From Actinomycetota bacterium (GTDB taxonomy: Bacteria > Actinomycetota > Actinomycetes > Nanopelagicales > Nanopelagicaceae), in assembly GCA_947372915.1 (NCBI GenBank), contig CANBVO010000005.1, forward strand, positions 1-40,857: a stretch of 40,857 nucleotides of DNA, given 5' to 3'. Numbering within the stretch: the stretch's first letter is position 1; the number at the start of each line of letters is the position of its first letter. Position numbers and translations under genes: made by a program. Of the stretch, positions 4,526 through 40,857 are shown piece by piece. Under the pieces are notes generated by a model. It saw only the letters and a program-made list of their open reading frames with translations. It was not told the origin of the DNA and did no database searches.

Positions 4526-7500
4526 TTAGACGTTATTGAAGATCACTCGCAGCGCTGGCGTATTTGACACTGCTTCGCCAGCCGGAGTAATCACTGCGGC
4601 TCGGCCCATGGAGACCCCAGTGGTAAAGCCATTAGCGCTCATATAACTATCGGGAATGCTTAACGTTATCTTTGTAGGAGTTCTGCTGGTTATATAAGCG
4701 GTCGCGTTTCTATTATCCACGTTGCGACCAAAGTTCACCGTCACCGATCCAGCGGTAGTCCAGAAGTTCGCTCCTACTATTTCGATGACGACGTTTGAAA
4801 ACGAGCCGATACCGCCAGCCGTCTGAGTAATCGAGGTTATCACCGGCGCAATCGTCGTCGTAGAACTATCTGCTGCCGTAGTAATTGTGGTTGTTTCTAA
4901 ATAGTTATTGAAATCAAGAATGATGGTGTGAGATCCGCCAGCGCTTTGATTAGAACCATTAAATCCGCTGGTGAAAATGTAGAAGTTGATGGTGCGAGTG
5001 TCACTGGCCGCTAGGTAGTTACTGGTTTGCGGTACAGAGATATTAACGACACAAGCGGTCGCAACACTGGAATAAAGAACGCCAGTGGCAGACATAGTGC
5101 AGCTGCCAGTCACCAACGTCCATGTGACAGTGACGGTATCAACTCCGACGCCAGTGGCGTACAAGGTAATAGTCTCGTTTGCTGCACCCACATAAAGGTT
5201 GGAATAGGCAGCGTTATCGATCCGTAAAGCACGGGTCGCTCTTCCAATTGAAAGAGTCGCAGTCTCGTAATTGGTGTATTGGTAATACGCCAACTGGCCA
5301 CCGCTCACCGTTCCATAGCTGACCGCCGTAATCAGCGGTGTTATTACGTAATTGCCAGCCTTCTTCGGAAAGACTGTGTTTGTTGCAGAATAAGTTTCGC
5401 CGGAGAATGCGGTGCCGCTGTAGTAAATGGCAGTAGTTACGGTGTCGTTATTGACCAGGGGAGTAACCGAGACGGTCTCATTCCAAGTAATGGTGTCGCC
5501 ATTGTTATAGACCAGACCTACCGGTGTTGTTGGCGTGACGGTGACGGTATCGGCTTTAGTGACAGTCAGGGTTTCGAGCAAGGTATAGGTCTGGGCAAGC
5601 GCATCCACAACAGTGATGCTGTCTGCATAAATGCCTGGAATAAGTGAAGTGGCGTTGGAGTAAATAACTGATACGCCAGATGACGTATCGGCGATGATTT
5701 TTCCGTTATAGGTATTCCGAAGAGTTAAGGTATATGGCGCGGTTCCGCCGAAGACAACAACGGTGGGGGAATACGAAACAGTGCCATATTTGGCGGTCAT
5801 GCTTGCAGAGAGTCCAGAAGAGTTATTGCGCAGCATTCCTATAAATGCATCATCATCAGCTTTGGGGAGAAAGGTGAAGCTATCTAAAGTAGTGGTGTCA
5901 TTAATGACACCGGCCGCTGCCATATTGCCTAGTGGGTCTACGGCAATCGCTTTGATTGTGTCTGCAGTATTTGCAGCGCCACCATATGCGGCTAGATAGA
6001 CAGGTGAACCATTCGCTGAATATTCAATGAGTGGATTAATCTTGCCGGTGTAGTTGTAAGTGACGCCATTCAAAGTAACTGCATCTTTGATGCGTCCAAC
6101 CAAGTACGCATTCCCGTTTTGATCAGCGCCTCCTGAATACCAATATGAATCATTGTACGAATCGCTTGTTAATTGCTTACTCCAGAGTCGATATCCGGAG
6201 TTATCAAACTTTATTGCGACAGCAGCCAATTTAGCGGTGATTCCATCAGAGAATGGATATTCAATGCTATTTAGAGTTGTTCCTCCGAATGTTCCACCCG
6301 CCACATAGACAGCACCAGAAGGATCAGTGAACCCAGTAAAAGCCTGATCTCCCTGTCGAGGAAAGCTACTGTTCATTCCGGAAATCCCGCCGCCATCTTG
6401 GCTAACCCAAATGCCGTTTCCATCGCTATCTAACTTCATGGCAAAGAAGTTTCCATAACCTCTATATCGCGCGCTTAGGCTGAGTGATCGGAAACTAACC
6501 GAGTCATCTACCGTTCCGGTAAGTAAGAGATTGCCATATGGATCGACATCAACAGAGGCGAAGGCCACATTGGCACTTGAATTCGCTGTGTTGTATACCC
6601 AGATGAGATTGCCTTGTGCATCAACTTTAATGAGGTAAGCGCTCTCGTATCCATTACGACCATTAATTTCGTAGGCGCGAGCAGAACCACATGAACCCGA
6701 GAGCCAGAACCCTACGGTCGTTGTATCGTTACATGCAATGTTGGTCGCAATATTTGCAGGTGAAGCATAGGCAATCTTTCGTGTTTGAATTCCTGCGATA
6801 TACACATTTCCAGATGAATCGACTGCCAATCCGCGGACATCTCCATATAAACCTCGTGGACTGGTTCCGTTCACCGCGTCCTGATTGGTTCCACTGCTGT
6901 TATCTATTCTTGCAATCCAGGTTGTCGCGCCCGCACTATCCATCTTGACAATGAAATCTCCAATAACAGGATATTCAATGCTGTTGAATAGTTGCCAATG
7001 ATTATCAAACATCACCGCACCTGACCCAGATGCCGCAAAGTAGACGTTGCCGGAGGAATCAACAACTATTTTCTTTCCCCAAATTCGCCCGTAAATGACG
7101 TTGTAGGTCATCGCTTTGGCATACTTAATCCACTGAACGACACCATTCTTATCAATCTTTACGAATTGGTAGCCATTGAATGTCATAGGAGAAGTACCTG
7201 TCATCGCAAAGCCTGAGTCGCTAGCACCGAAACCATAGACATTTCCCTGTGCGTCAATAGTCACGTTAGTGAAGGAACTCTTACCTTTCTTGCCACTGAG
7301 AGAAAAGCTCGTACCGGTATCTACCCAAGAAAAGACATCGCCGACCATCAAGATTGGCAAGCTACCCACATAGACACTTGCCGTCTCGGTTAAGAATGCA
7401 CCTGCTGCATCCGTTGCTTTAACGGTTAATAAATATTGCGCAGGCTGAGTGGTAATTCCAGCAGTAATGATTGCGGTAGCAGAATCAATAGTGATGCCCG

Positions 7501-10500
7501 TCGGTGGAGATACCAAAGACCATTTAATTGGAGTGACTCCGCCGGTTGAAGTGAAAGCAAGCGACGAGGCGGCGATGCCATAAGGGGTTCTAATTGCACT
7601 GCCACCACCTGTTAACGTGAATTGATCAAAGATCGTGAGCGTTGCCGAGTCTGTGTAGGCGCTAAAGGTCTCAAACGTGGTGTTGTTAGTATCGATGAGT
7701 TTCGCCCTAAAGCGCATCCCCGACATAGATTTATCTGCAATTGAGTTGAATGAGTTTCCGATGGCGAGAGTAGGCGTGGAGTAATCAAAGAAAATAAAAT
7801 CGAAGTTGGAGCCATCAATCGTCGTCCATGTTGAAGTTCCTGAATCCTGTTTCTGCCATTGGTACGAACGGGTATACCCAGTGATGGGATCTCCGCTCAC
7901 GGAGAATGAAGTAATCTGTCCAACAGAAGTCTTGGTATCTACTGGGCTAATAAATTCCATTGAGCTAGTTGGATAGAGCAAATAAACAACTCCGGTGCCG
8001 CCTCGGCCACCATTAATCTGGCAACTATCTCCACCACCGCCGCCGCCACCACCGTAAAACGCGAAAGCATCGGTTCCTGGGTTTCCTGCACCACCACCAG
8101 CGTTTCCGGATCCGCCTTGCGCATTTCCATTATCGCCGCCACCGTTAGAACCAGCAATATTCCAACCACCAGAACCGCCGCCGCCGCCATAGATATGGGT
8201 CGTTCCTGTTATTGAATCCGAAGTTCCGGCAGCAGCATCACTAGGTGCGCCTTGGGCTGGATCGATTAATCCGCCACCAGTTCCAGTAAAGCTCTTAATA
8301 ACTGTGATGCCGGTGGTTGATGTTGGTGCACCACCAGCAGATGCAGAAGCATTGTAGTTAGCTGCTTCAGTACCAGCGGTTGGATTCTGGCAACGATTAT
8401 CTTTCCAGTGGTTAGGTCCGCCAACTCCGCCAGTAACAACTGCGTTAACGGTGTTATCGGCAGAAATTATTGAAGTAGTACCGCCAGTTCCACCTACAAA
8501 AATCGGAGCAGTTGGTACAGCCGAGTTATAGGAATAACTATTAATTCCACCGGTGCCCACTTTAATTTTCAAACGTGAAGTTGTAGTTGTTGTGACTTTT
8601 CCTTTGAGAACTCCACCACCAGCGCCGCCATATCCAGCGTTACCGGTACCACCGCCACCGCCACCGACCAACATTGCGGTGGGGAAAGCGCTGGCTTTAG
8701 GGAGCGACCATCCGCCATATGAGTTAATGATGGTGCGCGGGAATTGATAGAGGCGGTTGCTGCCGACAACTGATGAAGAATCCACGGTCTGGGTAGTCCA
8801 AGGGGTGCCAGTTGGAATTAAATCACTCAGACCCATGGCAGTTGCATCTCGATCGTGAAGAACCGTGCCCGTCTCATTGAAGTTGTAATAGGCAAAGAGG
8901 CCAGAGGTGGATGTATCTACGGCATCGTGCAGATCAGTGCTGATAGAAGTTCTTCGATTGCTGTTCCAGATTTTAATTTCATCAATCTGACCATCGAAGT
9001 AACCTGTACCTCCGCCGCTACCCACATAAAGATAGTTATTTGCTGCTGGGACAAAGGTTCCGGTCGTCGATTCAACTTCTTGGCCGTCGTAATAGGCATA
9101 CCAAATTCCATTATTAAAAGTCATCGCCAAGTGATGCCATTGATTGAGTTGCGGGGCTTGATTGAAGTTGATGTCGTTATTGGTACTACCGGAATAAAGC
9201 TTTCCGTGCCATTCATTACTTCGACAAGTAAATCCAATAACGTTATTGAAATTCATGGCATAGCTATCGGTGGCACTTGAACAAGATGTCGTTCGATTCA
9301 CCCAGATCTCAGCAGAGATAGTAGAAGCGGAAAAGGTGATCGGCGCAGTAGATTTCGCCTCTTTATTAGTGCTAAAGGTCGCCGCATAATCCGCGTCGAG
9401 ATCGCCCGGCGCTCGAACTGTGAGCGTCGCTGACTCAGTATACGAGGTCACGGTTTCGCCGGTCACGGTATCGGAATCAATAATCTGAACTCGGTAGTGA
9501 TATTGATTGCGCGCACGATTATTCTGTTGCGGCAAGGTGTAAGTCGTAGTGTCATAGCCAGTGCCATCAGTGACATTGAGCCAGGTGGTTCCAGTTGAAG
9601 TTTCATACTGCCAGCGATAGGTGCGAACAAGCGAACCTACCGGAGTGCTCACAATTTTAAATGTCGGGGTATCGCCCTCTGCAACTGATGTATCGACTGG
9701 AGAAGTAGATGTTGGGGTATCGGTGATGTATCGCAGCACGATAATTCCAGAGCCACCACGCCCGGAGTAGGCAGTAATCGCAGCACCATTAGTAAATGCG
9801 GTCGCGCCACCGCCGCCACCACCACCGGTGTTATAGCAACCATCTCCACCGTACTGTTGGAAAACGTTTGCACCTTTTCCGCATGTGCCAGTACCGCCTA
9901 ATCCTGGTGGTGCGCTGAAGTACATATTTTCGTAAGACGGATATGTATAACCACCAATACCACGAGCTCCACCACCACCAGCTGAATACTGAACTGCAAC
10001 GCCAGTAATACTTAATGTGTCACCGGGTCCACCATCAGGGCGTGTACCGGTTGATCCCACTGTGGTGCTATCACCTAAGGTGCCAGAAATACCTGGACCT
10101 GTTGCACCGCCACCGCCACCAGTGTTGCGATAGTTTCCATTGAGAATAGATGGTGCGCCGGCATAACCTTCAGGAGGTGTGTAGCCACCGGTGTTACCAG
10201 TTCCACTATCTTGCGCCCACGCAGCAGAGAAAGATCCACCACCACCAGAACCACCAGAAAATCCTTTACCTTGATTCTGAACGCTGCTGGGACTTGCGCC
10301 ACCTGCGCCGCCACCGTGTGCAACCAGAGTTCCTACTGTTGAAGATTCGCCACTTCCAGCAGTACCGCTACCTGCCGCGCCGTTACCACCCATACCTACT
10401 TGAATTTTTGTATACGTAGGAAGGGAGTTAAGAATTGTGTAGATACGACCACCCGCACCGCCACCGCCACCTCGGTCTGCACCACCTGCGCCACCACCGG

Positions 10501-13500
10501 CAACATTGAGCACGCGAATTGATCCTGAAATTTGTGGAACTATCCAGCCACTATTAATAGTGATGTAAGAACGAAGGAATTTAATAATCGTTACACCAGT
10601 AGCAGTGGTGGTATCAACTACTCGGTGTTCAACAACCGAAACCGAATTCTTATAAATGAGATCGGTCGTACCATTCGAAATTACCGAACGATCATAAGCG
10701 CGGGTAGATGATGAAAGCTCATTGAAATCCCAGTAGATGAGTAAACCAGCGCTGTTTCCGGCCGTGTAGTTATGCATACCAGTCTTGATTTCAGCTGCGG
10801 TGCGAATAGTGCTCCATACTTTGATTTCATCGACTTGCCCAGAGAAATATTCAATGGTCGCAGATCCGCCGACGGTCCATGCGCTCGAGGTGTCCTTCAT
10901 CGAAGCCATAGTTCCGGTATTCATGGCGCCGCCGTTGTAATACAAAGTCACGGCGCCAGTGGTTCCGTTGCGCGTGATTCCCAAGTGCTGCCAAGTGCTG
11001 GTTTCCACAATCACGTTGAAATCTATTGGCGCAAGCGCGGTGCCGCCGGAGTCGTATCCAGTGGCATAAAAGCGATTGTCGTGACAGTCGATATTTAAAA
11101 AGGTGGTCTTACGCAGAATCCGTTGATTAGTCGCGCCGGCGCAACCGAGGGTTGGCTTCACCCAGAGCTCGACCGTAAAAGTATCGCTGACATTTACCGC
11201 GGCATAGGTAGTCGCATAATTCGATCCGCTGAGCGAAAGCACCGTATCTGTATCACTGGATGTTGGGGGAGTTGAAACAATGAGAGAGGCATACGTTTGA
11301 GAGGCCCCCGAGAAAGAAGCGGCATTACTTCCAGATGGTGTTGTCGTGTCGGTAATTAGTAATCGATAGAGATATCCATTTGCCGTAGTTGATTCCACTG
11401 GAGTGACGTACGTATTGGTATCGGAAGTAGTAGATGTATTGGCCAGCGTGGTCCATGTGCTGCCGGAGTTGGTCGATAGCTGCCATTGAGTTGTACGGAA
11501 ATAACCAGTTGCAGGTTTGCTATATGCGGTATATGTATCTACATATCCGCGGATGATCGTGAGCGTGTTATAAATTGGAGAATATTCCACTGGGATGTAA
11601 CGGACGATGACTACGCCAGAACCACCCGCGCCACCGTAGACACGTTGGTTATATTGGTTGATTCCGCCATCATCGCCGGCTGAACCAGCACCACCACCAG
11701 AGCCAGTATTAGCTACACCGTTTGTACCGGTGCTTGTTCCCAATCCTTTGAAATGTGCAGCACCTGTACCACCATTTCCACTTCCGCCAATAACGCCAGC
11801 ACAGTTGGCAGCATTCATTACATCGCCAGCGGTGTAGATATTGCCACCACCGCCGTCTGAGTAAGTCATGCTCGATCCAGAAAAAGCTAGCGAAGTGCCT
11901 GTGCCACCTACGCCACCGAATGCACATGATGCACCGCCGGTAGGTCCACTTGAAACAGCAGATCCTCCGTTAGCGCCCGCAATTCCAGCACCGCCACTTC
12001 CACCGGTTCCACCCAAACCGCCAGTTTGGCTAGCTGATACGGAGCCGCCGCTTGCTGTGACGGATAAGCCAGCACCAGAAAGTGTTGAGTTAGCACCTGC
12101 TGTTGCGTTACCTCCACCCCAAACGCCACCCAAACCACCTGTACCGATTGCAATTGATACCGAGGCTTTAGGGGTTACTACGGAATAGGTGTCATAACGA
12201 ATTTCGCCACCACCACCACCGCCATATATATCGCCACTTCCGCCAGCGCCACCACCGACAGCTAGAAATGAAAGTGAGGTAACGCTTTCAGGAACAGTCC
12301 AGGTACCACTTCCGCCAGTAAAAGTGAGAATGCAATAGTTAGCTATGATGTTGACTGAAAAACTAAGTCCCGCGCTTACTGTTTGCGCACCACATTTTCC
12401 GGCAGCAACATAGACGGTATTGACCGAAGCACTCGAAAGTAAATTATCTGAATCAACTGCATAGCCCACATATCGCCCGGGTGGCAGGCCAGATAAAGAG
12501 ACATCCTGTCCAGTATTAGCTGTGGCAATCGAAACATTTATGCCTTTGCCTGCGGAAACTAAAGTGGTGAGATCAGATACCGAATTAACAGTTGCAGTGT
12601 CGCGGACCAAGTAAAGGTTGCCAACAGCTGTGCTGAAAACAGTTGCGGTTGTGGAATCTTTCTGTACCAACTTTGGAGTTGGTGGATAGGTAATGACTAC
12701 CGAACCAGGGGCGCCACAACCTGAGTTGTTTGTTGCAACTGAAGGGTTAGGGTTGCCATGAGTGCCATCGGTGTAGTTTGCGTTTGTGGTCCAACCAGAA
12801 GTTGTGAATCCCGTACCGCAGTTAGTGGTAGTTGCATTCGTACCATAAAGCAGCGTGCCTTCAATCCACGAAGTTGTCAGCGTTATTGAATCGCTTGGCA
12901 AACCGAATGTTCCGGCGCTTCCACCAAAACCAAATAATTCAGAGCTATTACTTACTTTGACCGTATCGCCACCTTTACCGCCGCGATATCCACCGCCACC
13001 ACCGCCACCTTGACCGCCATCGCCGCTGACGGTCGTGCCCGCGGAGGTTGTATTCGTAGAGGCGCCGCCGCCCGCACCGTTATATCCATTGACGTCAGTG
13101 CGATTGCTTTGAGCGCGAGGTGAGGTTTGAGTAGTCACGGAATCTGAATATGGAAGCGAGCTAGTAATAGTGTCGTAGTAAGAAATATTGTTTCCGCCAC
13201 CAGAGCCACCGCCACCAGGTGCAATTATTTGCGTTTTGCCGTTGATGATGACGACCGTGGCCGCGCCACCACCACCACCGTTTCCAGAACAAGAGGTGTT
13301 AGTGACTGCACCTTCACCACCATTGAAATCTGCGATGGGATTGAGTCCCTTGCGGCTGGAATAGGAAGCACCGGCACCACCAACGCAACCATCACCATTT
13401 ACTCCGCCGGAACCAATTGCAATCGTGACGGTGTCACCGGGCCGAACCGAAAATGTGGCAAGGATCCGCCCAATCTTTCCGACGTGGCCACCGTTCCAGG

Positions 13501-13768
13501 TATCCGAACCACCTTTACCGCCAGTACCGCCTCTCATATCTACAGTTATTCGGTAGACCGAATCTGGGACAACAAAGTATTTGAGTGCACCGTCGTAGGT
13601 GTAGGTGACTGAGGGATTGGTATTTTTTAACGCTGCGGATTTATCAATGAAGAAAGTTGGATCAGGGATAACCACTTGGAAAAAGCCAAGTAACAGGGTG
13701 ACCAATAGCGTGCGAACAACTGTCGCGGTCAACCCTGAACGCAAGAAAGGAGCGGTCGGCCGAATCAT
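4526..13768 (-). CDS. giant modular secreted surface protein, 3080 aa
   Basis: Unusually large for a small actinobacterium. Approximate domain order from visible sequence: hydrophobic signal/anchor segment (15-35); glycine-rich domain 1 (50-360); linker; glycine-rich 2 (478-725); Ig-like (730-845); LamG-like lectin fold 1 (846-1013); glycine-rich 3 (1069-1349); Ig-like (1356-1456); LamG-like 2 (1461-1633); glycine-rich 4 (1676-1931); Ig-like (1934-2040); putative-Ig (2053-2140); SBBP-type beta-propeller with repeated VDSSGNVY-like units (2146-2656); Ig/MBG-like repeats (2656-2930); IPT/TIG (2970-3080). There is no LPXTG or other sorting signal. Paired Gly-rich, Ig and LamG units point to internal duplication. 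A role in adhesion, polysaccharide binding or a surface coat is inferred. The frame is unbroken over 9.2 kb; the start lacks a Shine-Dalgarno sequence. Confidence 0.9.
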   Translation of the reverse strand: MIRPTAPFLRSGLTATVVRTLLVTLLLGFFQVVIPDPTFFIDKSAALKNTNPSVTYTYDGALKYFVVPDSVYRITVDMRGGTGGKGGSDTWNGGHVGKIGRILATFSVRPGDTVTIAIGSGGVNGDGCVGGAGASYSSRKGLNPIADFNGGEGAVTNTSCSGNGGGGGAATVVIINGKTQIIAPGGGGSGGGNNISYYDTITSSLPYSDSVTTQTSPRAQSNRTDVNGYNGAGGGASTNTTSAGTTVSGDGGQGGGGGGGYRGGKGGDTVKVSNSSELFGFGGSAGTFGLPSDSITLTTSWIEGTLLYGTNATTTNCGTGFTTSGWTTNANYTDGTHGNPNPSVATNNSGCGAPGSVVITYPPTPKLVQKDSTTATVFSTAVGNLYLVRDTATVNSVSDLTTLVSAGKGINVSIATANTGQDVSLSGLPPGRYVGYAVDSDNLLSSASVNTVYVAAGKCGAQTVSAGLSFSVNIIANYCILTFTGGSGTWTVPESVTSLSFLAVGGGAGGSGDIYGGGGGGEIRYDTYSVVTPKASVSIAIGTGGLGGVWGGGNATAGANSTLSGAGLSVTASGGSVSASQTGGLGGTGGSGGAGIAGANGGSAVSSGPTGGASCAFGGVGGTGTSLAFSGSSMTYSDGGGGNIYTAGDVMNAANCAGVIGGSGNGGTGAAHFKGLGTSTGTNGVANTGSGGGAGSAGDDGGINQYNQRVYGGAGGSGVVIVRYIPVEYSPIYNTLTIIRGYVDTYTAYSKPATGYFRTTQWQLSTNSGSTWTTLANTSTTSDTNTYVTPVESTTANGYLYRLLITDTTTPSGSNAASFSGASQTYASLIVSTPPTSSDTDTVLSLSGSNYATTYAAVNVSDTFTVELWVKPTLGCAGATNQRILRKTTFLNIDCHDNRFYATGYDSGGTALAPIDFNVIVETSTWQHLGITRNGTTGAVTLYYNGGAMNTGTMASMKDTSSAWTVGGSATIEYFSGQVDEIKVWSTIRTAAEIKTGMHNYTAGNSAGLLIYWDFNELSSSTRAYDRSVISNGTTDLIYKNSVSVVEHRVVDTTTATGVTIIKFLRSYITINSGWIVPQISGSIRVLNVAGGGAGGADRGGGGGAGGRIYTILNSLPTYTKIQVGMGGNGAAGSGTAGSGESSTVGTLVAHGGGAGGASPSSVQNQGKGFSGGSGGGGSFSAAWAQDSGTGNTGGYTPPEGYAGAPSILNGNYRNTGGGGGATGPGISGTLGDSTTVGSTGTRPDGGPGDTLSITGVAVQYSAGGGGARGIGGYTYPSYENMYFSAPPGLGGTGTCGKGANVFQQYGGDGCYNTGGGGGGGATAFTNGAAITAYSGRGGSGIIVLRYITDTPTSTSPVDTSVAEGDTPTFKIVSTPVGSLVRTYRWQYETSTGTTWLNVTDGTGYDTTTYTLPQQNNRARNQYHYRVQIIDSDTVTGETVTSYTESATLTVRAPGDLDADYAATFSTNKEAKSTAPITFSASTISAEIWVNRTTSCSSATDSYAMNFNNVIGFTCRSNEWHGKLYSGSTNNDINFNQAPQLNQWHHLAMTFNNGIWYAYYDGQEVESTTGTFVPAANNYLYVGSGGGTGYFDGQIDEIKIWNSNRRTSISTDLHDAVDTSTSGLFAYYNFNETGTVLHDRDATAMGLSDLIPTGTPWTTQTVDSSSVVGSNRLYQFPRTIINSYGGWSLPKASAFPTAMLVGGGGGGTGNAGYGGAGGGVLKGKVTTTTTSRLKIKVGTGGINSYSYNSAVPTAPIFVGGTGGTTSIISADNTVNAVVTGGVGGPNHWKDNRCQNPTAGTEAANYNASASAGGAPTSTTGITVIKSFTGTGGGLIDPAQGAPSDAAAGTSDSITGTTHIYGGGGGSGGWNIAGSNGGGDNGNAQGGSGNAGGGAGNPGTDAFAFYGGGGGGGGDSCQINGGRGGTGVVYLLYPTSSMEFISPVDTKTSVGQITSFSVSGDPITGYTRSYQWQKQDSGTSTWTTIDGSNFDFIFFDYSTPTLAIGNSFNSIADKSMSGMRFRAKLIDTNNTTFETFSAYTDSATLTIFDQFTLTGGGSAIRTPYGIAASSLAFTSTGGVTPIKWSLVSPPTGITIDSATAIITAGITTQPAQYLLTVKATDAAGAFLTETASVYVGSLPILMVGDVFSWVDTGTSFSLSGKKGKSSFTNVTIDAQGNVYGFGASDSGFAMTGTSPMTFNGYQFVKIDKNGVVQWIKYAKAMTYNVIYGRIWGKKIVVDSSGNVYFAASGSGAVMFDNHWQLFNSIEYPVIGDFIVKMDSAGATTWIARIDNSSGTNQDAVNGTSPRGLYGDVRGLAVDSSGNVYIAGIQTRKIAYASPANIATNIACNDTTTVGFWLSGSCGSARAYEINGRNGYESAYLIKVDAQGNLIWVYNTANSSANVAFASVDVDPYGNLLLTGTVDDSVSFRSLSLSARYRGYGNFFAMKLDSDGNGIWVSQDGGGISGMNSSFPRQGDQAFTGFTDPSGAVYVAGGTFGGTTLNSIEYPFSDGITAKLAAVAIKFDNSGYRLWSKQLTSDSYNDSYWYSGGADQNGNAYLVGRIKDAVTLNGVTYNYTGKINPLIEYSANGSPVYLAAYGGAANTADTIKAIAVDPLGNMAAAGVINDTTTLDSFTFLPKADDDAFIGMLRNNSSGLSASMTAKYGTVSYSPTVVVFGGTAPYTLTLRNTYNGKIIADTSSGVSVIYSNATSLIPGIYADSITVVDALAQTYTLLETLTVTKADTVTVTPTTPVGLVYNNGDTITWNETVSVTPLVNNDTVTTAIYYSGTAFSGETYSATNTVFPKKAGNYVITPLITAVSYGTVSGGQLAYYQYTNYETATLSIGRATRALRIDNAAYSNLYVGAANETITLYATGVGVDTVTVTWTLVTGSCTMSATGVLYSSVATACVVNISVPQTSNYLAASDTRTINFYIFTSGFNGSNQSAGGSHTIILDFNNYLETTTITTAADSSTTTIAPVITSITQTAGGIGSFSNVVIEIVGANFWTTAGSVTVNFGRNVDNRNATAYITSRTPTKITLSIPDSYMSANGFTTGVSMGRAAVITPAGEAVSNTPALRVIFNNV

Positions 13769-35493: not shown

Positions 35494-37083
35494 TTAACCG
35501 CGCGAGCCCGTTCTCAATCCAACAACAATCTTAAGCGAGATAGATGAATTCGAGATCAGCGGATTCGTCGGGACTGCAGTTGCAGAGAGCATAATTTCAC
35601 CGTGTTGTGTGGGCTTCCACGAACAGGTAGCAACAATATTTGGCGATGTTCCTGACGTTGGACGGCTTTTACAGCCAACAATAACTCGACCATTTAATTT
35701 AAAAGTTACCTTTGATGGGGTTGAAACGTTTGCGGTGACGAGAACGGGGGTTCTGTATGGAGTGGTCTTTACGGAACCAGCTAGAGAGAATGAAGTAAAT
35801 GTGGAGATTGTGTTGAGGGTTCCAGGACCAGTCGGAGGGAAAACGTAATCTGATTTATAGAATTTAGGAGCGCTGTAATCACCCATGAGATATGAGCCCA
35901 GAATGTGGTTGCGACCTAAGAATGTGGCATTGCTAGTTGTTGATGAGTCTGCGGTGGGCGAGTTAATCGGACAGAGCGAACCGGATACTCCCGTTGTCGC
36001 CGTGCACGTACCAGATCCAGAACCGTTAAAGACAATGTATGAGGGAGCACCAGACTGGAGTGCATAAACTTTATATCCGCTGCTGTATCTAATTTCATAT
36101 AAGTAAGTTCCGTCAGTTGCAATACCGTGTTCATCATCTGGCCAACCAGATTGGGTGTCGGCAAGCACGATGTTTTCAGAGAAAGTAAAAGTTGCAGTTT
36201 TTCCAGTGCCAACGACATTGAAGAGTTTTAAAATCTTGCAGTACATTCCTGATGGACATTGTCCCGCACCTGTTCCAACCCCATTAGGGGCAGCGGTATT
36301 AGGAGCACTTACTGCACCAATTCGACCGTCAGGGAAGTCGATAATATTTCCGGTTAACCATCCGCTACCGGCGTACCAGTTCTGCGGAAGGGTGAGTGAG
36401 TTAACGGTCCAGTCACTCGTATCGATGCAATAGATATTGTTATTTGCTGATCCATTGGGGCGGAGGAAAATACAACCGCTGCTATAAGTCAGATCAATGG
36501 AATCAATGCCAATGGCCGAGAGCGTTGATCCAATATTGATGGCTTGCTTTACGTATCCGCTCATATCTACTTTGCAAAGATAAGTGGTGGCGTTAGATGG
36601 TCGGAAATATACGAATGTGCCATCGGATGTAATTCCGCGAACGTCGCCACCTGTGCAACTTGCTGCATTAGGAACAGATCCCGTCGGATCGGTAATGGTG
36701 ACGATCGAGCCACCAGATGCGATCAATCGGGCAGAGAGCGGAATGCTCCATTTTGCGTACAGAGTGATATCGGAATTAAGGGTAATAGTTCCAGAGCCAG
36801 CTGTGTAATTATTTCCCAAGCCACTACTTAAAGTATTCCAACCTTCAAAAACAAAGCCTTGTCGCGCTAAATTTCCGCTATTACTTGCAACAGTGACGAG
36901 CGTTCCCGCGGCGTAGCTTGTGGGAGAGGGAACGCTGCCTGAAGTTACGCCGGTCTGGTGCTGAGACTCATTTGCGTTATAAGTAATGGTGTAATTGATT
37001 GCGTGTGCGGGAGATATTGGCGAAGCAATCCAATAAATAGGCAGCAGCACTAGGGCGAGGAGAATCCGGAGCCGAGCGCGCAT
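35494..37083 (-). CDS. secreted InlB-repeat surface protein, 529 aa
   Basis: A secreted protein with a clear signal peptide ending SPAHA (residue 28). An InlB B-repeat/Listeria-Bacteroides-type domain follows at about residues 31-113, with the typical FEGWNT and LYAKW motifs. The middle (about 120-420) looks like a beta-propeller with ITSDGTFVYF and IATDGTYLYE-like blades. The last 101 residues (429-529) form a domain shared with the secreted protein at 37721-39565, including the Cys pair GCKS/ATCSWKP and a basic RTGSRG tail. No LPXTG signal is present. A surface adhesive or structural role is inferred. The ATG follows a -10-like hexamer. Confidence 0.85.
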   Translation of the reverse strand: MRARLRILLALVLLPIYWIASPISPAHAINYTITYNANESQHQTGVTSGSVPSPTSYAAGTLVTVASNSGNLARQGFVFEGWNTLSSGLGNNYTAGSGTITLNSDITLYAKWSIPLSARLIASGGSIVTITDPTGSVPNAASCTGGDVRGITSDGTFVYFRPSNATTYLCKVDMSGYVKQAINIGSTLSAIGIDSIDLTYSSGCIFLRPNGSANNNIYCIDTSDWTVNSLTLPQNWYAGSGWLTGNIIDFPDGRIGAVSAPNTAAPNGVGTGAGQCPSGMYCKILKLFNVVGTGKTATFTFSENIVLADTQSGWPDDEHGIATDGTYLYEIRYSSGYKVYALQSGAPSYIVFNGSGSGTCTATTGVSGSLCPINSPTADSSTTSNATFLGRNHILGSYLMGDYSAPKFYKSDYVFPPTGPGTLNTISTFTSFSLAGSVKTTPYRTPVLVTANVSTPSKVTFKLNGRVIVGCKSRPTSGTSPNIVATCSWKPTQHGEIMLSATAVPTNPLISNSSISLKIVVGLRTGSRG

Positions 37084-37241: not shown

Positions 37242-37718
37242 ATGAAACTCACCACCTGCCTATGGTTTAACGGCCAGGCTCGCGAAGCGGCTAATTTCTA
37301 CACCAGCATTTTTCCCGACAGCTCGGTTGCCGATAATTGGATTGCCCCCACTGATACTCCCGGAAACAAGCAGGGCGAAGAGATCGTTGTTAATTTCAAG
37401 ATATTTAGTCAAGATTTCATCGGCCTTAATGGCGGCCCACAGTTTCCTCATAGCGAAGCAATTTCATTCCAGATTCCGTGCGCTGATCAAAATGAGATTG
37501 ATAAGTATTGGTCGATTCTCACTGCCGATGGTGGAGCCGAAAGCCAGTGCGGTTGGCTCAAAGATAAGTTTGGAATTTCGTGGCAGGTCACTTCACCAGA
37601 GATGGGTAAGTATTTGGGTGGCTCAGATTCTGAAGGCGCGCAGCGTGCGACTAAGGCAATGCTTGAAATGAAGAAGATTGATTTGGCGGCAATGGAGAAG
37701 GCTTACTTAGGAAAGTAA
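37242..37718 (+). CDS. VOC family protein (3-demethylubiquinone-methyltransferase-like / PhnB-like)
   Basis: A 158-residue vicinal-oxygen-chelate fold protein. It opens with CLWFNGQAREAANFYTSIFP (residues 6-25), the usual first beta-alpha-beta unit of the 3-dmu-9_3-mt/PhnB-like branch, and includes FIGLNGGPQF and WSILTADGG...CGWLKDKFGISWQV. Members are often annotated as glyoxalase-like or methyltransferase-like with no proven activity. It starts at a leaderless-type ATG and is followed 2 bases later by a secreted-protein gene that appears to share its transcript. Confidence 0.88.
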   Translation: MKLTTCLWFNGQAREAANFYTSIFPDSSVADNWIAPTDTPGNKQGEEIVVNFKIFSQDFIGLNGGPQFPHSEAISFQIPCADQNEIDKYWSILTADGGAESQCGWLKDKFGISWQVTSPEMGKYLGGSDSEGAQRATKAMLEMKKIDLAAMEKAYLGK

Positions 37719-37720
37719 GC

Positions 37721-39565
37721 ATGCAAAGAACTTCTCGCGTATTTCTTTTCTCACTTCTCGCCATTTTTCCCCTGGTCTCGGTGCCCGCTCCTGCGCACGC
37801 GGCAGTCCCAACCGTAACTTCAGTCTCGCCCGTGTATAGCCCACTTACTGGCGGGGTCACATCCACAATCGTTGGAACCGGGTTCACAGGAACTACCGGT
37901 GTGACGATTGGAGGAAGCGCAGCAACGATTTCCTCGGTCACGGATACTGAACTAGTTGTTGTAACTCCGGCCCTGGGTTCAAATGGAAATAAAACTCTTG
38001 TCGTTACCAATGCCGATGGGTCAGTAACAGCTGCAAACGCATTCGTTTATTACGACACCGCAGTTAATTGTGGCACCAGCGGTGCTTTCTATATTCAAAG
38101 CAACTCAGTCATTGCTGCCGTCAATTGTGTAGGAACAGTCAATGTTCCATCTGGCGTGACAAATATTGGTGGATGCTCATTTGGAAATGCAATTGGTGGA
38201 AACTGCGGAACTTTATCGGGTAATGCAATTACCGCAGTGACTCTTCCGAGCAGCCTGCGAACTATTACTGGCGCGGGATTCTTGGGTGCCTCAACTATGA
38301 CTTCCGTGAACATTCCCGAGGGTGTCACGACTATCGGAAACTCTGCGTTTTATATGGCTGGTAAACATGCCTTAAATATCCCGACAACAGTTACTAACAT
38401 CGATAACGCGTTCTATCGTTCGAACCTAACCGAAATTACTTTTTCGACCCCTACAAGCCTAAGAGCTATTGGCGCAAGTACATTCCGCGCATCTCCAAAT
38501 CTCACATCATTGATCCTCCCGGACGGCATCACATCACTCGCTTCAATTTCCGTGGGAAGAGATCCAAGCGATTTAAGTAATACGGCAAATCTCAAGTGGG
38601 TTTCACTGCCAAGCTCTCTCACCTCGACTACAGCGACTACATTCGGTCTTCTTCCACTTACCTGCGTTGTTAACCGTGGAGATACCGCTTATCTCAATGG
38701 TCTTACCTATCCAAATAGCCCAACAGTGGTGACGGATATAAATAGTTGCCCAGCTCCCACATTCACTTCAGTATCGCCCACATCTGGCACTACTCAAGGT
38801 GGCATATCCACGACTATTACCGGTACAAATCTTTCCACGGTGAACTCGGTAACTATTGATGGCCTAGAGGCCTCAATCACAAGTCGCACTGCAACCGCTC
38901 TTACTTTTAACACCCCTGTAGGAACTGTGGGAGCAAAGAACATTGTGTTAACAACCTATGGCCCCACTCTTACCTCTACTGGCGCCTATACATACCTACC
39001 TTTGCCCAGCATTACGTCGCTATCGGTGACCTCTGGTCCGGTTGCGGGCGGAACTTCCACCATTGTGACTGGCACAAATCTTGCGAGCATTACCGTCGCA
39101 ACAATTGGTGGCGCAAATGCCACGCGTGCGAGCAATACATCTACTTCAATCACTCTGACCACTCCGGTTGGAACAGCCGGTGCGAAAGATCTCGTAATCA
39201 CCAATGTCAACGGAACCATCACCCTGTCTGGGGCTTTTACTTACGTCGTGCAAACCGCATCTTTTAGCGCGTTCTCGCTAGCCGGGTCTGTAACCATCAC
39301 GCCTTACCGCACGCCCATAAATATCACTGCCACCGTCGCTTACTCTTCGCGAATAACTTTTAAATTTGGAAATCTACGCATCCCTGGCTGCGTGAGCATT
39401 CCAACGGCTGCCTCAGCTCCATATACCGCGGTATGCAAATGGAAGCCTTCACGTCGCGGTACGTACGCGCTCACGGCTGTTGCTGTTCCCACAACAGGAG
39501 GAATTTCAGTCGGGGTCGCTTCGCCAATTACGGTTTCGATTAACAATCGAACTGCAAGTCGTTAG
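37721..39565 (+). CDS. secreted IPT/TIG and BspA-type LRR surface protein, 614 aa
   Basis: A signal peptide ends near PAHA (residue 27). Domain order: IPT/TIG 1 (about 29-110); a BspA-like leucine-rich-repeat block with repeats such as LPSSLRTIT, IPEGVTTIG and LPDGITSLA (about 120-340); IPT/TIG 2 (about 345-427); IPT/TIG 3 (about 428-510); and a C-terminal domain (515-614) shared with the protein at 35494-37083, with Cys residues in PGCVS and AVCKWKP and an RTASR tail. BspA-type LRR proteins commonly mediate surface binding. No sorting motif is present. It starts 2 bases after the VOC gene, so is probably co-transcribed. Confidence 0.87.
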   Translation: MQRTSRVFLFSLLAIFPLVSVPAPAHAAVPTVTSVSPVYSPLTGGVTSTIVGTGFTGTTGVTIGGSAATISSVTDTELVVVTPALGSNGNKTLVVTNADGSVTAANAFVYYDTAVNCGTSGAFYIQSNSVIAAVNCVGTVNVPSGVTNIGGCSFGNAIGGNCGTLSGNAITAVTLPSSLRTITGAGFLGASTMTSVNIPEGVTTIGNSAFYMAGKHALNIPTTVTNIDNAFYRSNLTEITFSTPTSLRAIGASTFRASPNLTSLILPDGITSLASISVGRDPSDLSNTANLKWVSLPSSLTSTTATTFGLLPLTCVVNRGDTAYLNGLTYPNSPTVVTDINSCPAPTFTSVSPTSGTTQGGISTTITGTNLSTVNSVTIDGLEASITSRTATALTFNTPVGTVGAKNIVLTTYGPTLTSTGAYTYLPLPSITSLSVTSGPVAGGTSTIVTGTNLASITVATIGGANATRASNTSTSITLTTPVGTAGAKDLVITNVNGTITLSGAFTYVVQTASFSAFSLAGSVTITPYRTPINITATVAYSSRITFKFGNLRIPGCVSIPTAASAPYTAVCKWKPSRRGTYALTAVAVPTTGGISVGVASPITVSINNRTASR

Positions 39566-39690: not shown

Positions 39691-39711
39691 AAGTGGGTTG
39701 TGAGGGACTCG
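39691..39711. repeat. attachment-site-like duplicate of the tRNA-Lys 3' end
   Basis: The 21 bases aagtgggttgtgagggactcg match 40721-40741 at 20 of 21 positions, in direct orientation. The right-hand copy is the 3' end of the intact tRNA-Lys plus 3 flanking bases. Confidence 0.75.
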
Positions 39712-39819
39712 TTATCAAACCTTCAAACCATTCCCTTTGACCCACTATGCGGATATATCCGTTCTTGACTCATCTCCAATATTAGGGATAGCCAGTGACA
39801 AATCAAGAGCAGAGAACAT

Positions 39820-40659
39820 GTGGCTTCCATTTATTGGAGAACACCAGCCTGTTACCCTTTTTTAGTGTCTGCTTTGATTCCTGTCTACTCCATCTCTAAG
39901 CCATTCCTTGCTGAAGCAGTCATCGCACTCAAAATCCCGCTGGATTCCCAAATTGGCCAATATGTCCCAGGCCTGCATGAATGTTACAAAGGCAGAATTA
40001 TTTCTGACCTCTTGAATCACACTTCAGGGTTAGACGATTACGGTGACATGCCCGAGTATCAAGAAGCCGTGAAAGAAGGCAAGCCTGCATGGGGAAGAGA
40101 ATTACTGCTCGCCAAAGCATCAATACGGACTCACAATAATGAGGGTTTTCGTTATTCAAATATCGGATATCTACTATTGATAATGCTCCTAGAGGCGAAG
40201 AGTAAGAAACATTACTTTGAAGCATTGTCGGAATTAGTTTTTAAACCATTGCACATTAATAGTTTTGTAGAATGGAAAACTGCACATCCTGCCATTCCCT
40301 ATTATGATCCAAATTGGGTCTATTCAGGAACTTTTCTTAGTGATCCAAAAACTATTGCTCCATCACTTATGAAACTTGCACGGCATCGTCATGATTCCAT
40401 GGGACTTGGCGTTGGTATAACTCAACTTTCATACATTGATACTGGATTTGAAGAGCCTGGTTATGGACTTGGATTCATGTCTGATGGAGGTTGGTCAAAT
40501 TCTGTCCCCCGCTTCGTTGGGCATGGTGGTGGAGGTCCTGGTTTTAGTTTGATGGCTCTTGTGAATACTTCTAACTGGAAGTCAGGGCTTGAATATTCAA
40601 CGGAAGGTTTTGACCAAAGTCAGGCTATTACTAAATTGATTAAAAAAATTGGTGATTAG
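39820..40659 (+). pseudogene. N-terminally truncated beta-lactamase-family serine hydrolase
   Basis: A 279-residue class-C beta-lactamase/DD-peptidase-like protein. Catalytic motifs are all present: SISK (Ser24, Lys27), YSN (Tyr112-Asn114) and HGG (His235-Gly237). However, SxxK lies only 24 residues from the GTG start, whereas the family normally has a signal peptide plus a 40-60 residue beta-strand region before it. Overlapping ORFs in the other two frames just upstream (starts at 39794 and 39818) stop within 40 codons and do not restore it. The gene is therefore either a pseudogene or an intracellular short form. It is the only cargo of the tRNA-Lys islet. Confidence 0.65.
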
Positions 40660-40711
40660 CCGTACTTTGTTATTTGAAAACATCTAAAGGTTTGGACATA
40701 GAACTCGGATT

Positions 40712-40725
40712 CACTTACGTAAGTG
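40712..40725. other. 14-bp perfect palindrome at the tRNA-Lys 3' flank
   Basis: CACTTACGTAAGTG overlaps the tRNA 3' terminus. A shorter palindrome (TTCATGAA, 39685-39692) sits at the same place beside the left repeat copy, so both junctions carry dyad symmetry that could be a recombinase site. Confidence 0.4.
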
Positions 40726-40796
40726 GGTGGTGAGGGACTCGAACCCCCGACCCGGTGATTAAGAGTCACCTGCTCTACCAACTGAGCTAACCACCC
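40724..40796 (-). tRNA. tRNA-Lys(CUU)
   Basis: A complete 73-nt cloverleaf on the minus strand: acceptor GGGTGGT with ACCACCC, D-arm GCTCAGTTGGTAGAGC, anticodon stem GGTGA/TCACC with loop CTCTTAA (anticodon CTT), T-arm GGGGGTTCGAGTCCC region, discriminator A. CCA is not encoded. Its 3' end faces the islet and is duplicated at 39691-39711. Confidence 0.95.
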
Positions 40797-40857
40797 GAAG
40801 CATCCAGGCGCCGGAAACGCTTGAATGCAGGTGGAAACCTATCAGCAATTTTGGCCT

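Follow-up and report, generated by a model that had tools for sequence, protein, structure and literature searches.

Gene cassettes associated with tRNA repeats have already been published for other streamlined plankton. In 'Ca. Methylopumilus', the additive island fGI-2 is preceded by repeats, varying in number, of the final 20 nt of tRNA-Lys(ctt) (PMC10872708), and fGI1 of 'Ca. Actinomarinales' is described with tRNA-repeat gene cassettes (PMC7771536). Tycheposons, described for Prochlorococcus, are elements of 4-200 kb with a tyrosine recombinase, as summarised in PMC10872708. Here we analysed a 40,857-nucleotide stretch of Nanopelagicaceae DNA (the window; contig C5 of a 118-contig assembly), at the end of which a single gene lies between two copies of a tRNA-Lys 3' end. 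We consider it probable that this locus is a non-autonomous one-gene integrative cassette, which would have entered site-specifically at tRNA-Lys(CTT) with the aid of a helper acting in trans.

The putative integration target, tRNA-Lys(CTT) with a GGGTGGT/ACCACCC acceptor variant, was located by ARAGORN at 40723-40796 on the minus strand. The 21-bp core repeat AAGTGGGTGGTGAGGGACTCG (40721-40741, minus strand), which consists of the last 19 bases of this tRNA and 2 bp, was found again by sequence search at 39691-39711; this copy has the same orientation and differs at a single base (20/21), and the distance between the two copies is 1,030 bp with one gene inside. When up to three mismatches were allowed, the window contained no match besides these two, and 0/100 dinucleotide shuffles contained a match, confirming the repeat pointed out in an earlier sequence-only reading. 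Regarding the tRNA-Val of the window, no comparable repeat was found, the best other match being 16/20 at 36273. The G+C content of the insert is 0.416, lower than that of the window (0.488), and the single ORF in it belongs to PF00144, in agreement with the description of the insert as one foreign-looking gene without its own integrase.

This ORF, mechanically called at 39820-40659, matched the Pfam family Beta-lactamase (PF00144) with an E-value of 1.5e-18, the profile match beginning from position 49 of 329. Since the homologues in G277 and G270 (genus g32) begin at the residue corresponding to 39865, the coding sequence is likely 39865-40659 on the plus strand, encoding an S12-type serine hydrolase of 264 aa, a type assigned from Pfam and PDB relatives. 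The motifs SxxK, YxN and HxG are all present (S9-I-S-K12, Y97-S-N99 and H220-G-G), and about 50 N-terminal family residues before SxxK are missing in all three proteins (window, G277 and G270). Close homologues were found in only two others among 296 family genomes, with about 70-72% amino acid identity (72% for G277, 70% for G270), so that the situation which would have spoken against an insertion, namely all relatives carrying the same gene and both repeats, was not encountered. In comparison with G277, dN was 0.19 and dS was 0.95, and dS was saturated in comparison with G270; as judged by sequence comparison, the hydrolase is under purifying selection. The nearest solved structures in the PDB were S12 D-Ala-D-Ala carboxypeptidases and D-peptidases, and a role as peptidase or esterase is a guess. 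An AlphaFold2 model built on the three sequences was discarded (pLDDT 34). The last ~65 residues (window 40460-40659; L178 5192-5400) are nearly identical to G277 and the rest about 65%, which suggests recombination inside the gene.

The core was searched in the 296 family genomes and occurs in exact form at least once in 138 of them, with the copy in the tRNA itself counted. About 90 loci were read, part of them picked for having repeats, so that the following counts are no frequencies: in 27 family loci the tRNA 3' end was seen again behind the tRNA, and in 27 others, including L050 and L100, no such repeat followed over at least 4 kb. A PF06983 (PhnB-like) gene lies directly behind tRNA-Lys in repeat-free loci, within 166 bp of it in the same-genus genome G008 and within 75 bp in G158 of g32. 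In the window, this gene (37242-37718, plus strand; Pfam and locus comparison) marks where the variable stretch ends on the far side and is situated, seen from the tRNA, beyond the cassette and a neighbouring TIG/LRR surface-protein gene (37721-39565, plus strand; likewise assigned), which is missing here in G008 and G158. The TIG/LRR gene, for which a repeat of its own was looked for and not found, is probably an older island gene. A gene for another predicted surface-type protein, of 3,080 aa, is located at 4526-13768 on the minus strand of the window.

Fifty-three cassettes were read, with a median length of 1,370 bp, most of them 0.5-2 kb and without integrase. Their cargo elsewhere includes isochorismatase, SMR transporter with DUF5360, SOUL, TMEM175, DUF402 and DUF3472 proteins, and the same-genus genomes G009 and G015 carry other genes at the same distal end as the window. 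Tandem arrays were also observed, with four cassettes in a row at L165 and three behind the tRNA at L140, and 53 of the 73 ORFs of at least 120 aa were oriented toward the tRNA. Relatives without the insert, which the sequence-only reading had named as confirmation, and different cargo at the same site, which it had thought possible in other strains, were thus both found, and insertion at tRNA-Lys is supported by the repeat-free relatives, the other cargo and the tandem arrays. A bounding repeat, unoccupied relatives and variable, stacked cargo, as in an additive tRNA-anchored island or cassette, were all found.

Several features of individual loci were also recorded. L157 (1502-2455) and L184 (7597-8549), from genera g20 and g29, contain nearly the same 952-953-bp cassette (SMR transporter and DUF5360) with a B-type end. 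G270 has a second near-full-length tRNA-Lys, with two core mismatches, 1,365 bp behind the first (L179 122-140 and 1487-1505). A secretion-signal-like N-terminus, MRIRGSLAKGLLLALALTLIP...SAQK, recurs in the cargo of L047, L048, L139, L140, L151, L152, L153 and L176, followed by a C-K-V...YTC-IKSGKKLVWN module and varying C-terminal parts; it often starts right after an A-type end.

The element is defined by its ends, not by its cargo. Distal ends were classified into A, B and C, with a duplication from the T arm, and D, with one from the anticodon loop. The type A end of the window (39712-39806, minus strand), delimited by query search and alignment, adjoins the core and recurs beside other cargo in five or more genera: a 116-bp query comprising the core and A gave about 89-98% identity in genera g1, g18, g20, g22 and g32, with different cargo. 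At the tRNA side, 40687-40720 (minus strand) is what is left of the conserved proximal end P1, its first ~34 bp; 46 bp present in contig C17 of the same assembly are lacking here. P1 (78 bp) was found in 36 of 261 genomes from 7 genera, starting at a core nearly always, and in G277 the hydrolase gene likewise lies behind a core and a P1 end. Regarding relations among ends, B and C are related (0/1000 shuffles as good) and A and C weakly related (15/1000 shuffles), and an inverted-repeat relation of distal A to proximal P1 was not significant (33/1000 shuffles). Complementarity between end and core exceeded chance for type B only (p = 0.0035, compared to 0.24 for A and 0.13 for C), and the A end folded modestly better than shuffles (z = −2.25). 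A scan of the cassette for promoters and terminators gave sites no more frequent than in shuffles. In IMG/VR viral contigs, none of the ends A, B, C and P1 and no 250-aa integrase (see below) were found; the core and its 2 bp occurred in four viral contigs that we judged unrelated, one without any tRNA and three with tRNA-Lys(ttt), which in two of the three lies in a phage tRNA cluster. D-type ends, which the window does not have, contain a ~40-nt hairpin just 5' of the duplicated tRNA half, variable in sequence with the pairing kept (L046, just 5' of 3-21; L107 5280; L154 6972; L170 10262; L171 1199; L175 6815). In these six sequences, 11 of 14 pairs showed compensatory changes, with a covariation of 0.776 compared to 0.228 in shuffles (0/500).

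Regarding recombinases, PF00589 is represented in G000, the genome of the window, by only two genes of Xer size (contigs C14 and C49), and no third recombinase gene was found beside tRNA-Lys(CTT) in the genus. No integron integrase was found beside tRNA-Lys on C5 or C17 or elsewhere in G000 (assembly 91% complete). A 250-aa integrase (PF00589 and PF14659) adjoins tRNA-Lys(CTT) in two genomes, G143 and G070, and in G236 its neighbour is a D-type copy; a 406-aa integrase lies behind tRNA-Lys in G148. Relatives of the 250-aa integrase adjoin tRNA-Arg(ACG) and tRNA-Arg(TCT), and the closest ones have the tRNA in common. Tyrosine integrases of this ~250-aa family lie directly 3' of these tRNAs (L107 8589-9341, L170 4483-5238, L175 1220-1987 and L213-L232). 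The 250-aa integrases belong to D-type elements, with distal end D and proximal end P2, and the integrases found beside tRNA-Lys go with this other end class; no recombinase was found with a link to the A and P1 ends.

Core position 13 is A or C, following the tRNA, and the tRNA and the first distal copy had the same base in 25 of 26 pairs (16 A/A and 9 C/C), the exception being the window (Fisher test: 5e-7 for the 25 pairs, 3e-6 including the window, kinship ignored). This match would be expected if the tRNA of the respective host had been the insertion target, and by itself the pattern could also arise from gene conversion. It gives in addition a separate reason to distrust the end of the window, where the contig stops 61 bp upstream of the tRNA. 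By sequence matches, the proximal end, tRNA and upstream region at 40687-40857 (no strand assigned) correspond to another genus, g32: 40770-40848 is 100% identical to two g32 genomes, and 40687-40848 is 99.4% identical to G133, one of these two. Contig C17 ends within the same hydrolase gene, behind a tRNA-Lys which has another acceptor-stem pair and is preceded by amtB-glnB as in relatives. The 3' end of this tRNA is identical to the distal repeat of the window (21/21), 2 mismatches are seen over 176 positions between the C5 and C17 tails of the hydrolase, and the G+C contents of C17 and the C5 body are 0.494 and 0.488; the gene order of the C5 body is common to the same-genus genome G007 (locus L060). 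C5 switches at AACCTT, a 6-bp microhomology, where the 46 bp of the proximal end are absent. The terminal ~170 bp of the window, comprising the tRNA and its upstream region, are thus most likely an assembly chimera, in which a g32-type tRNA was probably joined by assembly, the native-type tRNA and junction being on C17; this would explain the single repeat mismatch, probably not native. We infer that the assembler left the host path within a cassette that a g32 organism also has, implying near-identical cassettes in two genera, although such a copy in the second genus is deduced from the contig end only and the nearest copy in family genomes is 71% identical. The mosaic end could instead be real if the lineage had taken up the tRNA-Lys of g32 and its upstream region with or after the cassette and now had two tRNA-Lys(CTT), and indeed the contig runs unbroken over the junction, with the switch at a 6-bp microhomology instead of a long shared k-mer. 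However, the expected tRNA is present on C17 in its conserved amtB-glnB context with C17 ending inside the same cassette, relatives examined have one tRNA-Lys(CTT) per locus, and the sole discordant pair coincides with a contig end, so that we regard a real mosaic as unlikely. Since near-identical cassettes may be common to different genera, this case is a warning that metagenome assemblies can go chimeric at such sites.

As to the origin of the insert, the observations to be explained are the repeats, repeat-free loci, variable cargo, tandems, cross-genus ends and the absence of an integrase inside the cassette. In the explanation we favour, the cassette would have entered by site-specific recombination at the tRNA-Lys(CTT) 3' end, from the T loop to the acceptor end, leaving the conserved P1 beside the rebuilt tRNA and type A beside the displaced 3' copy. 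The ends and core would be acted on by a recombinase encoded elsewhere, probably of the tRNA-targeting tyrosine type, and as the outcome genes would be exchanged among genera and stacked in tandem behind the tRNA; both its action in trans and present-day mobility are what we infer. The sequence-only reading had offered movement in trans or the scar of a larger element, and of these movement in trans, itself conditional, fits better because the ends are conserved across genera, the cargo differs and most cassettes are short and lack an integrase. That an integrase and most genes were deleted from a larger island is conceivable in light of the 4-6 kb elements with the 250-aa integrase that G143 and G070 have at this tRNA, and of the 46 bp lost from the proximal end in C5, but those elements have the D and P2 ends, and independent scars would not yield both window-type ends kept across genera around different single genes, which makes a scar improbable. 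Equally improbable, in our estimation, is a spread by ordinary homologous recombination through tRNA-Lys and the conserved flanks, without any site-specific recombinase active at present. It would find 80-120 bp of ends and tRNA near-identical between genera, and it would suit the hydrolase whose C-terminal part alone is near-identical to G277, but exchange of whole cassettes with their flanks would import donor bases, not the host base seen in the distal copies, and tandems with a core at every junction are expected from repeated site-specific insertion. A similarity due to chance, or to plain tandem duplication of a tRNA, which the alike T-arm sequences of many tRNAs might bring to mind, was rejected as having a negligible probability: the shuffles gave no match, and a reversed control pattern was unmatched in every genome listed, whereas the true core is found again next to conserved ends across many genomes.

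If one-gene cassettes at a single tRNA form a pool common to these genomes, this would show where part of the differences between strains, in secreted proteins, small transporters and hydrolases, is kept and exchanged, and the defined ends give a handle for finding the helper recombinase. In the literature searched, cassette ends shared across genera appear undescribed and such cassettes are unreported for Nanopelagicaceae, a novelty that is provisional. The insert lacks its own integrase and the transfer or phage genes of an autonomous element (IME/ICE or prophage). It resembles tycheposons in being a tRNA-anchored cargo element of streamlined plankton (PMC10872708), but at 1,030 bp and without a tyrosine recombinase it departs from them in both size and gene content. 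The island fGI1 differs in involving several tRNAs in an envelope-polysaccharide island, and conserved ends and a recombinase are unaddressed in the consulted part of its report (PMC7771536). The island fGI-2 has in common the tRNA-Lys repeats, a gene content that varies and a freshwater host with a streamlined genome, although this host belongs to another phylum, the island ranges from 330 bp to 42 kb, and cross-genus cassette ends are undescribed in the part of the source consulted (PMC10872708). With integron gene cassettes, the elements have in common that they are one-gene tandem units, each closed by a recombination site and interchangeable between hosts; here, however, the primary site is a tRNA gene, the cargo is mostly oriented toward it, and no integron integrase was found in G000. 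The kept pairing of the D-end hairpin may recall integron attC sites, and the A end folds weakly better than chance. Less likely than not, in our view, is that the tRNA-Lys(CTT) locus of this family is an integron-like platform. With the tRNA gene as primary site, recombinases supplied in trans would then capture one-gene cassettes in tandem, each closed by one of a few classes of conserved or structured ends, and in these small, streamlined genomes the cassettes would be drawn from a gene pool common to several genera.
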